A DNA stretch of 64,000 bases. Origin: Streptomyces sp. WMMC940 (GTDB taxonomy: Bacteria; Actinomycetota; Actinomycetes; Streptomycetales; Streptomycetaceae). The notes below the pieces were generated by a model that saw only the letters and a program-made list of their open reading frames with translations, was not told the DNA's origin and made no database searches. The DNA lies in NCBI RefSeq assembly GCF_027460265.1, contig NZ_JAPZBC010000001.1, positions 1,821,001 through 1,885,000 on the forward strand, in the 5' to 3' direction. Shown in pieces: positions 25,280 to 28,076 of this stretch (within the stretch, counting starts at the first letter, position 1; the number at the start of each line of letters is the position of its first letter). The position numbers and the translations under genes were made by a program.

Positions 25280-26884
25280 GTGGACCCGGTGATCGTCGTC
25301 GGCGCGGGTCCGGTCGGGCTCGCCCTCGCCCTCGCCCTCGCCGCTCAGGGCGTTCCTTCGGTGGTCCTCGACGAGGGCGAGGGCAAGGACGAGCCGCGCC
25401 CCGCGCGTACGGTCCTCCTGCGCGCGGACACCGCGGCGCTCGCCCAGCGGCTGGGCTGCGCCACGATCCGTGACGAGGGAGCCCGCTGGGCCGGCTGGCG
25501 TTCGCTGCGGCGCAAGCAGGAACTGCGCCGGGTGGAGTTCCACGGGGAGGATCTGCCGGCTCCCGTGCACATCCCCCAGCACGCCCTGACGCGGGGACTG
25601 CGGGCGGCCGTGGACGCGGCGGACCTGGTGCGGGTCGCCACGCACAGCCGTCTCGACGCGTTGGAACAGGACGGGAGCGGTGTCACCGCGCACCCGCGCG
25701 GACCCGGGTCGACCTGGTGGCGCGGGAGTTTCCTGGTCGGCTGCGACGGGGCCAGGTCGACGGTCAGAAAGCTCCTCGGGATCCGGTTCCCGGGCCGGAC
25801 CGCCGTGGAACGCCACGCCGTCGCGGCCCTGCGCACCGAGCTGCCCTGGCCCGACGAAGGCGTGCTGCACCGGCTGCCGCCGTGGCGCGCGGTCGGGGAC
25901 GAGGTGACCGCGCGACCGCTGCCCGACGGCGTCTGGCGGCTGGACTGGCTGCTGCCCGCGCGCGGCGAACTGGTGACGCCCGACGCGCTGGTGTCACGGG
26001 TCCGGGACACGCTGGCCGGCTGGTGCGAGGGACCGCCGCAGTACGACCTCCTCGACACCGGCGTCCACACCCTGCACCACCGGCTGGCCCGACGCTGGCG
26101 TGTGGACCGTGCCTTCCTCGCCGGGGACGCGGCCCATCTCCTCGGCGCGGTCGGCACCCAGGGCGTGGACGAGGGCATGCGCGACGCCGACAACCTGGCG
26201 TGGAAGCTCGCCCAGGCCTGGCACCACGGCGCCTCCGAAACCCTGCTCGACAGCTACCAGGCCGAACGGCGCACGGCGGTTGCCGCACGGCTGCGGGCCG
26301 CGGACCAGTCCCTGCCGATACTGCGCGGCACCGGTGGCCTGCGGACGTATCTGCCGGGCGCCACGCGGGGGCACGACACGCTCCTGACGGACGGGCATCT
26401 GGGGCTCGGCGCGCTGGGTGCGCCCCCCGCCTACCCGCACTCCCCCCTCATGCCCCAGCACGCCGACGCGCACACCGCAGTCGGAACACCGGCCGGTGCT
26501 CCGGTGGCGGACGTGGCCGTGACGACGCCCGACGGGACGGCCGCCCGGCTGCGGGACCGGCTGGGCCGGGCCCGGCTGCTGGTGGTCCTGATCGCCCCCG
26601 GCACGGGCGTGTGGGACCGGCGCCACTGGGTGACGGCCGGCGTCATGCCCCGGCTCGCCTCGACGGTGTCGGAGCTGCCCGCCCGGGCGGAGCTGCTCGT
26701 CGCCGAGTCCTATCCGGGTGCATCGGCGCACACGGTGCTGCTGGTCAGGCCGGACGGACATCTCGCCGCCGCCTTCGGGGGCGTGCGTCCGGCCGAGCTG
26801 CACGCCGCGGCCGACGCGGTGCGTGGAGGTGCGCCCGCGACCTCGGAGTCCCGCGCCGAGCACGCGACCGCACGGTCGGACTGA
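25280..26884 (+). CDS. FAD-dependent aromatic-type monooxygenase (PF01494 group)
   Basis: The 534-residue product is a class A flavoprotein hydroxylase. It has the Rossmann motif VVGAGPVGLALALALA at the N-terminus, the second FAD/NAD(P)H motif GCDGARSTVRK near 160, and the third motif GDAAHLLGAVGTQGVDEGMRDADNLAWKL near 275. In that last motif the usual Pro before the GG-Q-G is replaced by Ala-Val, a mild departure. A C-terminal thioredoxin-like domain (about 400-530), as in phenol and polyketide hydroxylases, follows. The substrate is unknown. The GTG at 25280 has AGGAG seven bases upstream and begins directly at the Rossmann fold. It stands between two strong transcript boundaries and seems monocistronic. 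Confidence 0.88.
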   Translation: MDPVIVVGAGPVGLALALALAAQGVPSVVLDEGEGKDEPRPARTVLLRADTAALAQRLGCATIRDEGARWAGWRSLRRKQELRRVEFHGEDLPAPVHIPQHALTRGLRAAVDAADLVRVATHSRLDALEQDGSGVTAHPRGPGSTWWRGSFLVGCDGARSTVRKLLGIRFPGRTAVERHAVAALRTELPWPDEGVLHRLPPWRAVGDEVTARPLPDGVWRLDWLLPARGELVTPDALVSRVRDTLAGWCEGPPQYDLLDTGVHTLHHRLARRWRVDRAFLAGDAAHLLGAVGTQGVDEGMRDADNLAWKLAQAWHHGASETLLDSYQAERRTAVAARLRAADQSLPILRGTGGLRTYLPGATRGHDTLLTDGHLGLGALGAPPAYPHSPLMPQHADAHTAVGTPAGAPVADVAVTTPDGTAARLRDRLGRARLLVVLIAPGTGVWDRRHWVTAGVMPRLASTVSELPARAELLVAESYPGASAHTVLLVRPDGHLAAAFGGVRPAELHAAADAVRGGAPATSESRAEHATARSD

Positions 26885-26985
26885 GCACCCGCCCGCACTG
26901 CGGACATCCGTTGACCGGCACGGGCGCACATGGTGTACTCCGGGGCGTGACCGACACCGATGTGCGCCTGTGGCGGAGGGTCCAC

Positions 26986-27033
26986 ATGGACCTGCTCCGC
27001 TATGCGGGCTGCGTGTGTCGACGGTCTTGCTGA
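26986..27033 (+). CDS. Cysteine-rich leader peptide (MDLLRYAGCVCRRSC)
   Basis: A 15-codon open reading frame begins at ATG 26986, five bases after a near-perfect GGAGGG ribosome site at 26975-26980. Three of the last seven codons are cysteine, with two arginines between. Short peptides of the form R-x-x-x-D-L-x-R-x-x-x-C-x-C-R-R occur upstream of sulfur-metabolism genes in actinobacteria, and Cys-codon attenuators are described in mycobacteria. The next gene is cysteine dioxygenase, 114 bases downstream. I infer that ribosome stalling at Cys codons senses Cys-tRNA. An in-frame GTG at 26947 would give a longer version but lacks a ribosome site. Confidence 0.8.
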   Translation: MDLLRYAGCVCRRSC

Positions 27034-27077
27034 CCCCGCCTTCCCTCTCTCTCCCCCTGCTTTCGCGGCCGCGTTCG

Positions 27078-27097
27078 CGCACGGGTGTCCCCGTGCG
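27078..27097 (+). promoter_or_regulatory. Hairpin in the leader between the Cys peptide and cysteine dioxygenase
   Basis: An 8-bp stem (CGCACGGG with CCCGTGCG) and a 4-base loop lies 44 bases after the leader peptide stop and 51 bases before the cysteine dioxygenase start. It lacks a U-run. It could be one arm of an attenuator or a translation-masking fold controlled by ribosome position on the leader. Alternative partners were not modelled. Confidence 0.45.
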
Positions 27098-27147
27098 GGC
27101 GAGCACGTCGGCCGTGGGCGTCTCAGCGAGTCCCCAGGACGGTTCCC

Positions 27148-27675
27148 GTGACCCGGTCTGCTCCCGTGCACACCAAGGCCGCCGCACCCACCGCGGCCGA
27201 ACTCCTCGCGTTTGTGCGGCGTGCCGCCGCCGACACCGACATGATCGCCTCGCTGCCCCTGGACCCCGAGGGCCGCACCTGGGTGCGGCTGGAAGGGCCG
27301 GGCGGCAGTGAGGCGTGGTTGATCGGCTGGCCTCCCGGCACCGGCACCGGCTGGCACGACCATGCGGAATCGGTCGGCGCCTTCGCCACCGCGTCGGGCG
27401 AGCTGACGGAGAACTCCCTCGCGGTCCGGCTCCCCGCGAGCGGCTGGAAGACCCTGGAGCTGGCGGAGGACGTGGACCGCGGACGGCACCTCGGCCCCGG
27501 CGAGGGGCGGGCGTTCGGCAGGCACCATGTCCACGAGGTGCTCAACGAGTCCACCACCGAGCACGCGATCTCGGTCCACGCGTACCACCCGCCGCTGCCG
27601 CTGCTGCGGCGGTTCGGCAGGAGCGGCGCGGTACTCCGCCTCGAGCAGGTCGAACGTCCGGAGGACTGGCAGTGA
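27148..27675 (+). CDS. Cysteine dioxygenase (type I, cupin)
   Basis: CDO oxidises cysteine to cysteine sulfinate with O2 at a non-haem iron. The 175-residue cupin has the metal ligands in GWHDHAESVGAF (His70, His72) and HHVHEV (His127 or 129), typical of bacterial type I enzymes; the family G(X)5HXH(X)3,4E(X)6G motif is present in altered form. The GTG at 27148 has AGGACGG upstream. Its stop overlaps the rhodanese start (GTGA), so the two are coupled. The upstream Cys-codon leader supports a role in cysteine homeostasis. Confidence 0.9.
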   Translation: MTRSAPVHTKAAAPTAAELLAFVRRAAADTDMIASLPLDPEGRTWVRLEGPGGSEAWLIGWPPGTGTGWHDHAESVGAFATASGELTENSLAVRLPASGWKTLELAEDVDRGRHLGPGEGRAFGRHHVHEVLNESTTEHAISVHAYHPPLPLLRRFGRSGAVLRLEQVERPEDWQ

Positions 27676-28076
27676 GCGAACGGCCGACAGGAATCGACGA
27701 GTTGCTCGAGCGGGTCCGGGAGGGCCTGGACCGGGTCGAACCCCCCGAGGCGTTCGAGGCGGCCGCGGACGGTGCGCTGCTGGTCGACATCCGCTACGCG
27801 GCGCTGCGCGACCGGGACGGGCTGATCCCCGGTGCGCTGGTCGTCGAACGCAATGAACTGGAGTGGCGGCTGGACCCGCTGGGCAGCCATCGTGCGCCGG
27901 AGGCCACCGGCCATGACCTGCGGGTCGTGGTCGTCTGCAACGAGGGGTACGCCTCATCGCTCGCGGCGGCCTCACTCCGGCAGCTCGGGCTGCACCGCGC
28001 GACCGATATGGTCGGGGGCTTCCAGGCGTGGCGTGCGCAAGGACTGCCGGTGCAGGTGCCGGAGACGGCGGAGTAG
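27672..28076 (+). CDS. Single-domain rhodanese
   Basis: The 134-residue protein is a rhodanese-fold sulfurtransferase with the catalytic cysteine at 89 in VVCNEGYASS. LLVDIRYAALRDRDGLIPGA (N-terminal CH2A-like) and MVGGFQAWRAQGLPV (C-terminal CH2B-like) confirm the family. It overlaps the cysteine dioxygenase gene by four bases. It likely handles sulfane sulfur released during cysteine breakdown; the pairing also occurs in other actinobacteria. It is followed by a heavily structured 500-base gap. Confidence 0.92.
   Translation: MSERPTGIDELLERVREGLDRVEPPEAFEAAADGALLVDIRYAALRDRDGLIPGALVVERNELEWRLDPLGSHRAPEATGHDLRVVVVCNEGYASSLAAASLRQLGLHRATDMVGGFQAWRAQGLPVQVPETAE

Follow-up and report, generated by a model that had tools for sequence, protein, structure and literature searches.

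The cysteine dioxygenase/rhodanese operon of Streptomyces sp. WMMC940 is preceded by a short leader reading frame that is best explained as part of a cysteine-responsive attenuator acting mainly on translation (probability roughly 0.6, judged from sequence). The operon would most likely be on when cysteine runs short, not when it is plentiful. Coordinates refer to the window, i.e., the whole stretch of 64,000 nucleotides analyzed, and the features described below, from the leader promoter to the rhodanese gene, lie on its + strand. The cysteine dioxygenase-like gene (27148..27675) matches CDO_I (PF05995, 3.2e-45), with a profile match to solved cysteine dioxygenases. The start of the rhodanese-like sulfurtransferase gene (27672..28076; PF00581, 4.2e-12) overlaps the dioxygenase stop. 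Both genes are those named in an earlier, sequence-only reading of the window, and in 77 of 80 named loci a rhodanese gene lies beside that of the dioxygenase.

Concerning the substrate of the dioxygenase, mammalian cysteine dioxygenases contain a substrate-binding Arg, and Arg47 of the dioxygenase was invariant in the 16 sequences compared. It is an uncertain marker of substrate type, since aligning it with solved enzymes gives no clear match to the substrate-binding Arg. Chain 8qfl and the others closest among the solved structures carry the label cysteine dioxygenase; we take them to be ergothioneine dioxygenases, for which the literature search gave no confirmation.

The leader frame runs from GTG 26947 to 27033 (28 codons plus stop) and encodes VTDTDVRLWRRVHMDLLRYAGCVCRRSC. 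It matches the NCBIfam model NF042934.1 (cis_reg_atten, 'putative leader peptide') with 37 bits against a cut-off of 27, over residues 6–24, and was also above the cut-off in a genome-wide profile scan (35.3 bits). As the match exceeds the curated cut-off, the leader is a member of a catalogued family. The sequence-only reading had pointed to a 15-residue frame at 26986–27033, which is present (MDLLRYAGCVCRRSC), and to a GGAGG located 6 nt 5′ of its ATG 26986, which is also there. Neither appears to be an initiation site, as both lie inside the longer leader, where GGAGG is part of two Arg codons within an internal hairpin. The family match starts upstream of ATG 26986, and the longer frame opens with GTG or ATG at 141 of 152 dioxygenase loci, while codon 14, the ATG 26986 of the window, is ATG in only 113 and Leu or Val in 39. 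The true translation start is thus very probably GTG 26947, and ATG 26986 was rejected as an internal codon.

A promoter precedes this start at 26911..26939, with a −35 TTGACC (26911–26916), a 17-nt spacer and a −10 TGTACT (26934–26939) that ends 8 nt 5′ of the GTG. A TTGA..T..A(C/A)T layout occurs at the leader start in all of 80 loci (79 named plus the window), and the stricter TTGACC-16/18-T(G/C)TACT in 64 of them. The consensus promoter scan left it unreported because that scan demands A at the second position of the −10 element. A conserved promoter beside the start codon fits a leaderless transcript, which the leader probably has. Leaderless leader peptides have been reported in Streptomyces lividans, where 17% of transcripts are leaderless (PMC8079986, cited, like the other PMC papers here, from excerpts). 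A FAD_binding_3 monooxygenase gene (PF01494, 25193–26884) stops 62 nt 5′ of GTG 26947; the leader appears to be served by a promoter separate from that gene.

A leader of the NF042934 type was found 5′ of the dioxygenase in all 152 Streptomycetaceae loci examined, 145 of which are distinct when judged over the leader plus 60 nt (7 repeat another). The enzyme, not the leader, was the criterion for choosing these loci: 80 kept of at least 490 relatives, a further set of 6, another of 25, 40 hand-picked from the match list behind those 25, and the window; some leader counts cover 146 loci, codon counts all 152. The first scan displayed the leader in 79 of the 80 named Streptomyces loci, and in the remaining one (L057) it lies 381 nt upstream of the dioxygenase match start. 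Among 71 further Streptomycetaceae loci it was immediate in 66 and was recognized upon closer reading in L258, L277, L280, L281 and L272. In 76 Streptomyces loci, the mean pairwise identity was 0.949 for codons 8–21 and 0.972 for codons 22–24, while it was 0.651 over the promoter, 0.327 at positions −150 to −60, 0.569 over the 10 nt that follow the leader stop and 0.365 farther on. The comparisons were ungapped, which lowers the flank values somewhat. Third positions differed in 8.8% of comparisons in leader codons 8–24 versus 29.6% across a stretch of 20 dioxygenase codons, which indicates a constraint on the leader RNA in addition to that on the peptide. Its place in the family, its conservation and the promoter at its start strongly support the earlier claim of a Cys-codon leader ahead of this operon.

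Upstream of a dioxygenase paralogue, in five loci (L151, L159–L162), the family motif was not found. Two of these loci, L159 and L161, have short frames with CSCCRRSGC and CSSCRPS, which could be due to chance or represent another leader type. In another actinomycete family, a 48% identical dioxygenase (L150) is preceded by two different Cys-rich small open reading frames, one ending in CHGVMRCRCCA and the other containing YRRIHLDLLLTQGSVC; this suggests that cysteine control of the dioxygenase gene recurs.

The Cys codons of the window leader are ordered as CVCRRSC, with no run of consecutive ones: Cys22 (TGC, 27010..27012), Cys24 (TGT, 27016..27018) and Cys28 (27028–27030, within the leader tail). 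After Asp15, the 152 leaders contain three Cys in 115 cases, two in 28, one in seven and four in two. In the alignment across streptomycetes, which the sequence-only reading had proposed as a check, the Cys positions are conserved: codon 22 is Cys in 144/152, and the codon nine positions after the conserved Asp, Cys24, is the rare UGU in 152/152 (identity of codons 22–24, 0.972, as above). Cys24 is the proposed regulatory codon.

The fixation of UGU extends beyond the dioxygenase. A census of the leader family comprised 139 loci with 130 distinct leaders: five from the genome G000, 110 of 125 profile matches and 24 further best scorers, the 15 matches outside the census being all below the family cut-off; as the 24 added loci are best scorers, the sulfatase and PALP classes are over-represented. 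The locked position was Cys in 134 of these leaders, encoded by TGT in 129. The five TGC correspond to two single loci and to all three members of one class (census cluster 10; L128, L184, L232), which precedes a winged-helix Trans_reg_C protein and constitutes a natural exception. As controls, TGC and TGT were counted at other Cys: 40 versus 5 in the DLC motif, 17 versus 0 in the two codons preceding the locked codon, 44 versus 15 in the four codons following it, and 257 versus 12 in the downstream genes. A Fisher test of the locked codon against the DLC Cys gave p = 9e-29, a value that is descriptive and not a probability, since the sequences are related. In leaders from other families (22 loci, i.e., the 29 best-scoring ones minus six Streptomycetaceae and the unreadable L317; 11 are from one family, f3) the locked position was TGT in 22/22. 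As UGU is commoner there in general, the contrast rests mainly on the DLC Cys (18 TGC versus 2 TGT), the other controls being 16 versus 10 just before the locked codon, 10 versus 23 just after it and 27 versus 9 in downstream genes.

Pairing of the UGU with a GACAC near the leader 5′ end, suggested by the window fold, was considered as the reason for its fixation and rejected, because UGU persists where the partner is lost and in other gene classes; pairing is also an unlikely cause since neighboring codons and bases vary. The simplest reading would be that slower wobble decoding by tRNA-Cys(GCA), to our knowledge the only Cys tRNA, makes the codon a sensitive gauge. The rare codons of the enterobacterial leu leader offer a parallel.

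The leader peptide itself is conserved far from its Cys residues. This would be expected if the RxHxDLxR peptide, like TnaC, arrested the ribosome as a nascent chain in response to a sulfur metabolite, in which case the Cys codons would not be the sole sensor. The Arg four residues before the Asp was present in 138 of the 138 census leaders read, leaders that were aligned on the Asp itself and were all found with a profile of this same peptide. In the dioxygenase class, however, part of the peptide conservation is explained by an RNA hairpin, H1, and nascent-chain arrest is considered improbable. H1 (26971..27002, within codons 9–19) is formed by UGGCGGA/UCCGCUA around GGUCC/GGACC and includes the GGAGG and ATG mentioned above. 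In 68 sequences, 91.3% of its cells were paired, versus 30.6–50.0% in slid registers. Its covariation score was 0.069 versus 0.035 in shuffled alignments, with 0 of 500 shuffles as high, the slid register +2 reaching 0.080. One of its pairs was found as GC in 53 cases, CG in 8, GU in 3 and UG in 1; two-sided changes occurred at only two pairs, a number reached by 185 of 500 shuffles. As a predicted structure, H1 is supported.

The other RNA feature of the leader that bears on regulation is its tail (27022..27029), CGGTCTTG in the window and CCGTCCTG in most relatives. In most loci, the CCGTCCTG tail is exactly complementary to the dioxygenase Shine-Dalgarno CAGGACGG (27135..27142 in the window). 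Since the end of the leader can hide the ribosome-binding site of the operon, the leader probably senses cysteine supply. A Shine-Dalgarno of this type was found in 134 of the 146 loci scanned, the other 12 being all from other genera of Streptomycetaceae; outside Streptomyces the tail differs, e.g., LHRRVHLDLLRYAGCVCTAAR or ILVRRTHLDLVRYLGALCTPG. Among the 134 loci, the tail forms 8/8 pairs in 96, 7/8 in 25, 6/8 in nine and five or fewer in four (all eight pairs in 91/127 when distinct sequences are counted once). The fraction paired was 0.945 against at most 0.744 in slid registers, and this register was the unique best in 105/134.

In an alignment of 53 of the 134 loci, selected by a gap limit (104 nt) and a similarity filter, the tail/Shine-Dalgarno helix was paired in 94.3% of cells. 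The whole two-helix structure was paired in 85.6% versus 29.5–48.3% when slid. By eye, UUCGC, located directly 3′ of the stop, faces GCGAA in core Streptomyces, this pair being replaced in several divergent clades by UGAUC facing GAUCA; a matching two-sided change, CCGUCCC with GGGACGG, occurs in L273/L278. Two-sided changes occurred in six cells of the sequestering structure (at least as many in 6 of 500 shuffles; 3–9 in slid registers), which had a covariation score of 0.056 (reached by 5 of 500 shuffles; exceeded in three of six slid registers), so that its support by covariation is modest.

Folding results were mixed. The minimum free energy structures of three chosen relatives (L030, L292 and L273, full element) include the tail/Shine-Dalgarno helix, and that of L302, folded from the tail onward, includes part of it; two of these four folds were no better than shuffles (L273, z −0.85; L302, z 0.26). 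The window copy is degenerate, with six contiguous pairs possible (GUCUUG/CAGGAC). Its minimum free energy structure is without the helix, and the tail pairs there just upstream of the Shine-Dalgarno (CUUGCUGA/UCAGCGAG). RNAalifold, on the 53 sequences, preferred a competing hairpin of codons 20–21 with 27–28, paired in 98.1% of cells, with the Shine-Dalgarno paired elsewhere.

The proposed attenuator would work as follows. With ample Cys-tRNA, the ribosome would complete the leader and depart, and the freed tail would pair with the Shine-Dalgarno, so that the dioxygenase/rhodanese operon would stay low. Under a shortage of charged tRNA-Cys, the ribosome would wait at the UGU of codon 24 or at Cys28, cover the tail and free the Shine-Dalgarno, and the operon would be on. 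The operon would then form part of a sulfur-limitation regulon, and it might serve to recover sulfur from cysteine-like or other thiols instead of removing surplus cysteine. It is metabolically odd that a cysteine-consuming enzyme be induced under cysteine shortage, and this counts against the explanation.

The sequence-only reading had proposed the opposite logic, with the operon on when Cys-tRNA is charged; in its favor, the enzyme is predicted to consume cysteine. Cys22, with Cys in 144/152, is the first of the Cys codons met. On the basis of a ribosome footprint of about +15 nt, a ribosome stopped there would be too far upstream to open the helix, while ribosomes at the stop codon would open it briefly, which leaves some room for that sign. 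Nevertheless, the universal codon is UGU24, while Cys22 is lost in 8/152, and a ribosome held near Cys24 or Cys28 should expose the Shine-Dalgarno, giving expression under Cys-tRNA shortage. Moreover, the tail can sequester the Shine-Dalgarno in most relatives, and other members of the family front sulfur assimilation genes (sulfite reductase, cysteine-synthase-like, two-domain rhodanese and organosulfur genes), for which starvation induction is to be expected. Induction by charged Cys-tRNA thus seems unlikely.

The step affected by the leader could also be transcription. There are 114 nt between the leader stop and the dioxygenase GTG 27148, as had been stated before, and they begin with a pyrimidine-rich tract (27034..27064), seen by eye at the same place in many relatives. 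It could serve to load Rho whenever the leader carries no stalled ribosome. Such Rho-dependent attenuation would have the same sign as translational attenuation, and both could hold together. A role of Rho has been suggested for mycobacterial cys leaders (PMC1262725), and no terminator-like site was found in 26850–27200, unlike classical trp-type attenuators, which have an intrinsic terminator with a U-tract. The complementarity of tail and Shine-Dalgarno points instead to translation control, and Rho is regarded as a doubtful, though not negligible, candidate for the main step. Concerning the hairpin that had been noticed between leader and dioxygenase, a strong local one does exist in the window fold at about 27078..27097, but it was not seen in the relatives inspected by eye, many of which have a GCGCGC-type hairpin in its place; with no U-tract after it and no terminator-like site, it was discarded as an intrinsic terminator. 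Rfam covariance models gave only two matches in 26800–27300, both below the gathering score. Finally, the leader might only support expression by delivering ribosomes, without sensing cysteine. Reinitiation at leaders has been proposed (PMC4833913), and nothing specific favors it here; the invariant UGU and the 114-nt gap speak against it, and it is very improbable.

Concerning the leader family at large, its core is RxHxDLxR, with a Cys nine residues after the Asp. It was above the cut-off in 150/150 sampled Streptomyces genomes and in 177/296 genomes of a class sample (199 at E up to 0.001). The census clusters include sulfatases (24 loci), PALP cysteine-synthase-like enzymes (21), nitrite/sulfite reductases (15), two-domain rhodaneses (15) and the dioxygenase (13), downstream genes having been picked by a length and GC3 rule rather than by annotation, and cluster sizes being biased to strong scorers. 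In the PALP loci inspected, a ThiS-like gene precedes the PALP enzyme. Further downstream classes are binding-protein/ABC transporters, a dicarboxylate-type symporter, luciferase-like monooxygenases and flavin reductases. In the sulfatase cluster (cluster 0, e.g., L093; PF00884), the leader often has SAIC and then further Cys codons. A weak family match (19.7 bits; G000:C1:4228476, L005), with TGT at the Cys, precedes a 2OG-Fe(II) oxygenase gene by 111 nt; in another genome, a homologue of that gene follows a stronger match (L091). For the other gene classes of the family, visual inspection gave no evident sign of Shine-Dalgarno sequestration. It may tentatively be proposed that the cysteine leaders of actinomycetes constitute one family in which tRNA-Cys charging is sensed at a single UGU, locked in position and decoded by wobble, and that in Streptomycetaceae this response to starvation is wired by Shine-Dalgarno sequestration to a thiol dioxygenase/rhodanese operon, which would then serve to recover sulfur and not to dispose of cysteine.

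With the rest of the NF042934 family, the window leader shares the core and the Cys nine residues after the Asp; the dioxygenase leader adds Cys22, the Shine-Dalgarno-complementary tail and a cysteine-oxidizing operon downstream. Polycysteine leaders from genomes of another family are matched by the model as well, and one of these leaders (L315) precedes a probably CysA2-like protein. The mycobacterial polycysteine leaderless attenuators (Canestrari et al. 2020, as cited in PMC9094748, PMC9031893 and PMC13236596) are likewise Cys-rich and upstream of sulfur genes, a leaderless state being probable for the dioxygenase leader too, and the polycysteine leaders found here match the same model as the dioxygenase leader. 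The latter differs from those attenuators in having two or three separated Cys codons, with no run, and a catabolic-looking target. In mycobacteria, a Cys-rich leaderless frame with ribosome occupancy lies upstream of cysA2 (PMC4633059), and cysteine genes of Mycobacterium smegmatis are described as regulated by translation attenuation, with uORF pairing that masks the Shine-Dalgarno in such systems (PMC13236596). Induction by shortage agrees with the accounts of mycobacterial cysteine leaders (PMC9031893, PMC13236596).

The actinobacterial leaders of Seliverstov et al. 2005 (PMC1262725) share with the dioxygenase leader the Cys codons near the stop and the lack of an intrinsic terminator, but those in the excerpts belong to cys and cbs operons of Mycobacterium, Propionibacterium and Bifidobacterium, not to a Streptomyces dioxygenase. 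The uORFC-8-2 motif before cysS of Rhodobacterales (PMC8632094) is likewise a Cys-codon attenuator; it differs in its intrinsic terminator, the dominance of UGC with some UGU, and a different peptide and clade. None of the eight S. lividans leader peptides seen in the excerpts of PMC8079986 precedes a dioxygenase. The one before metNIQ, called methionine-dependent, ends in RCMCRRMCAF, with three Cys (Table 4 of that paper), and may be a cysteine leader. As a leader that would control a catabolic-looking operon, the dioxygenase leader has a counterpart in TnaC, which senses free tryptophan via its nascent chain. The literature search, thin on subscription journals, showed no Streptomyces leader before a cysteine dioxygenase and no recognizable report of a fixed UGU codon, which is weak evidence for the novelty of both.

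If induction by shortage is the true sign, an enzyme family read as cysteine disposal would be induced when cysteine is scarce, and the role assumed for bacterial cysteine dioxygenases located beside rhodaneses would change. As to the locked codon, a change of UGU to UGC keeps the peptide, and thus gives a single-base handle on whether codon choice sets the sensitivity of the attenuator.
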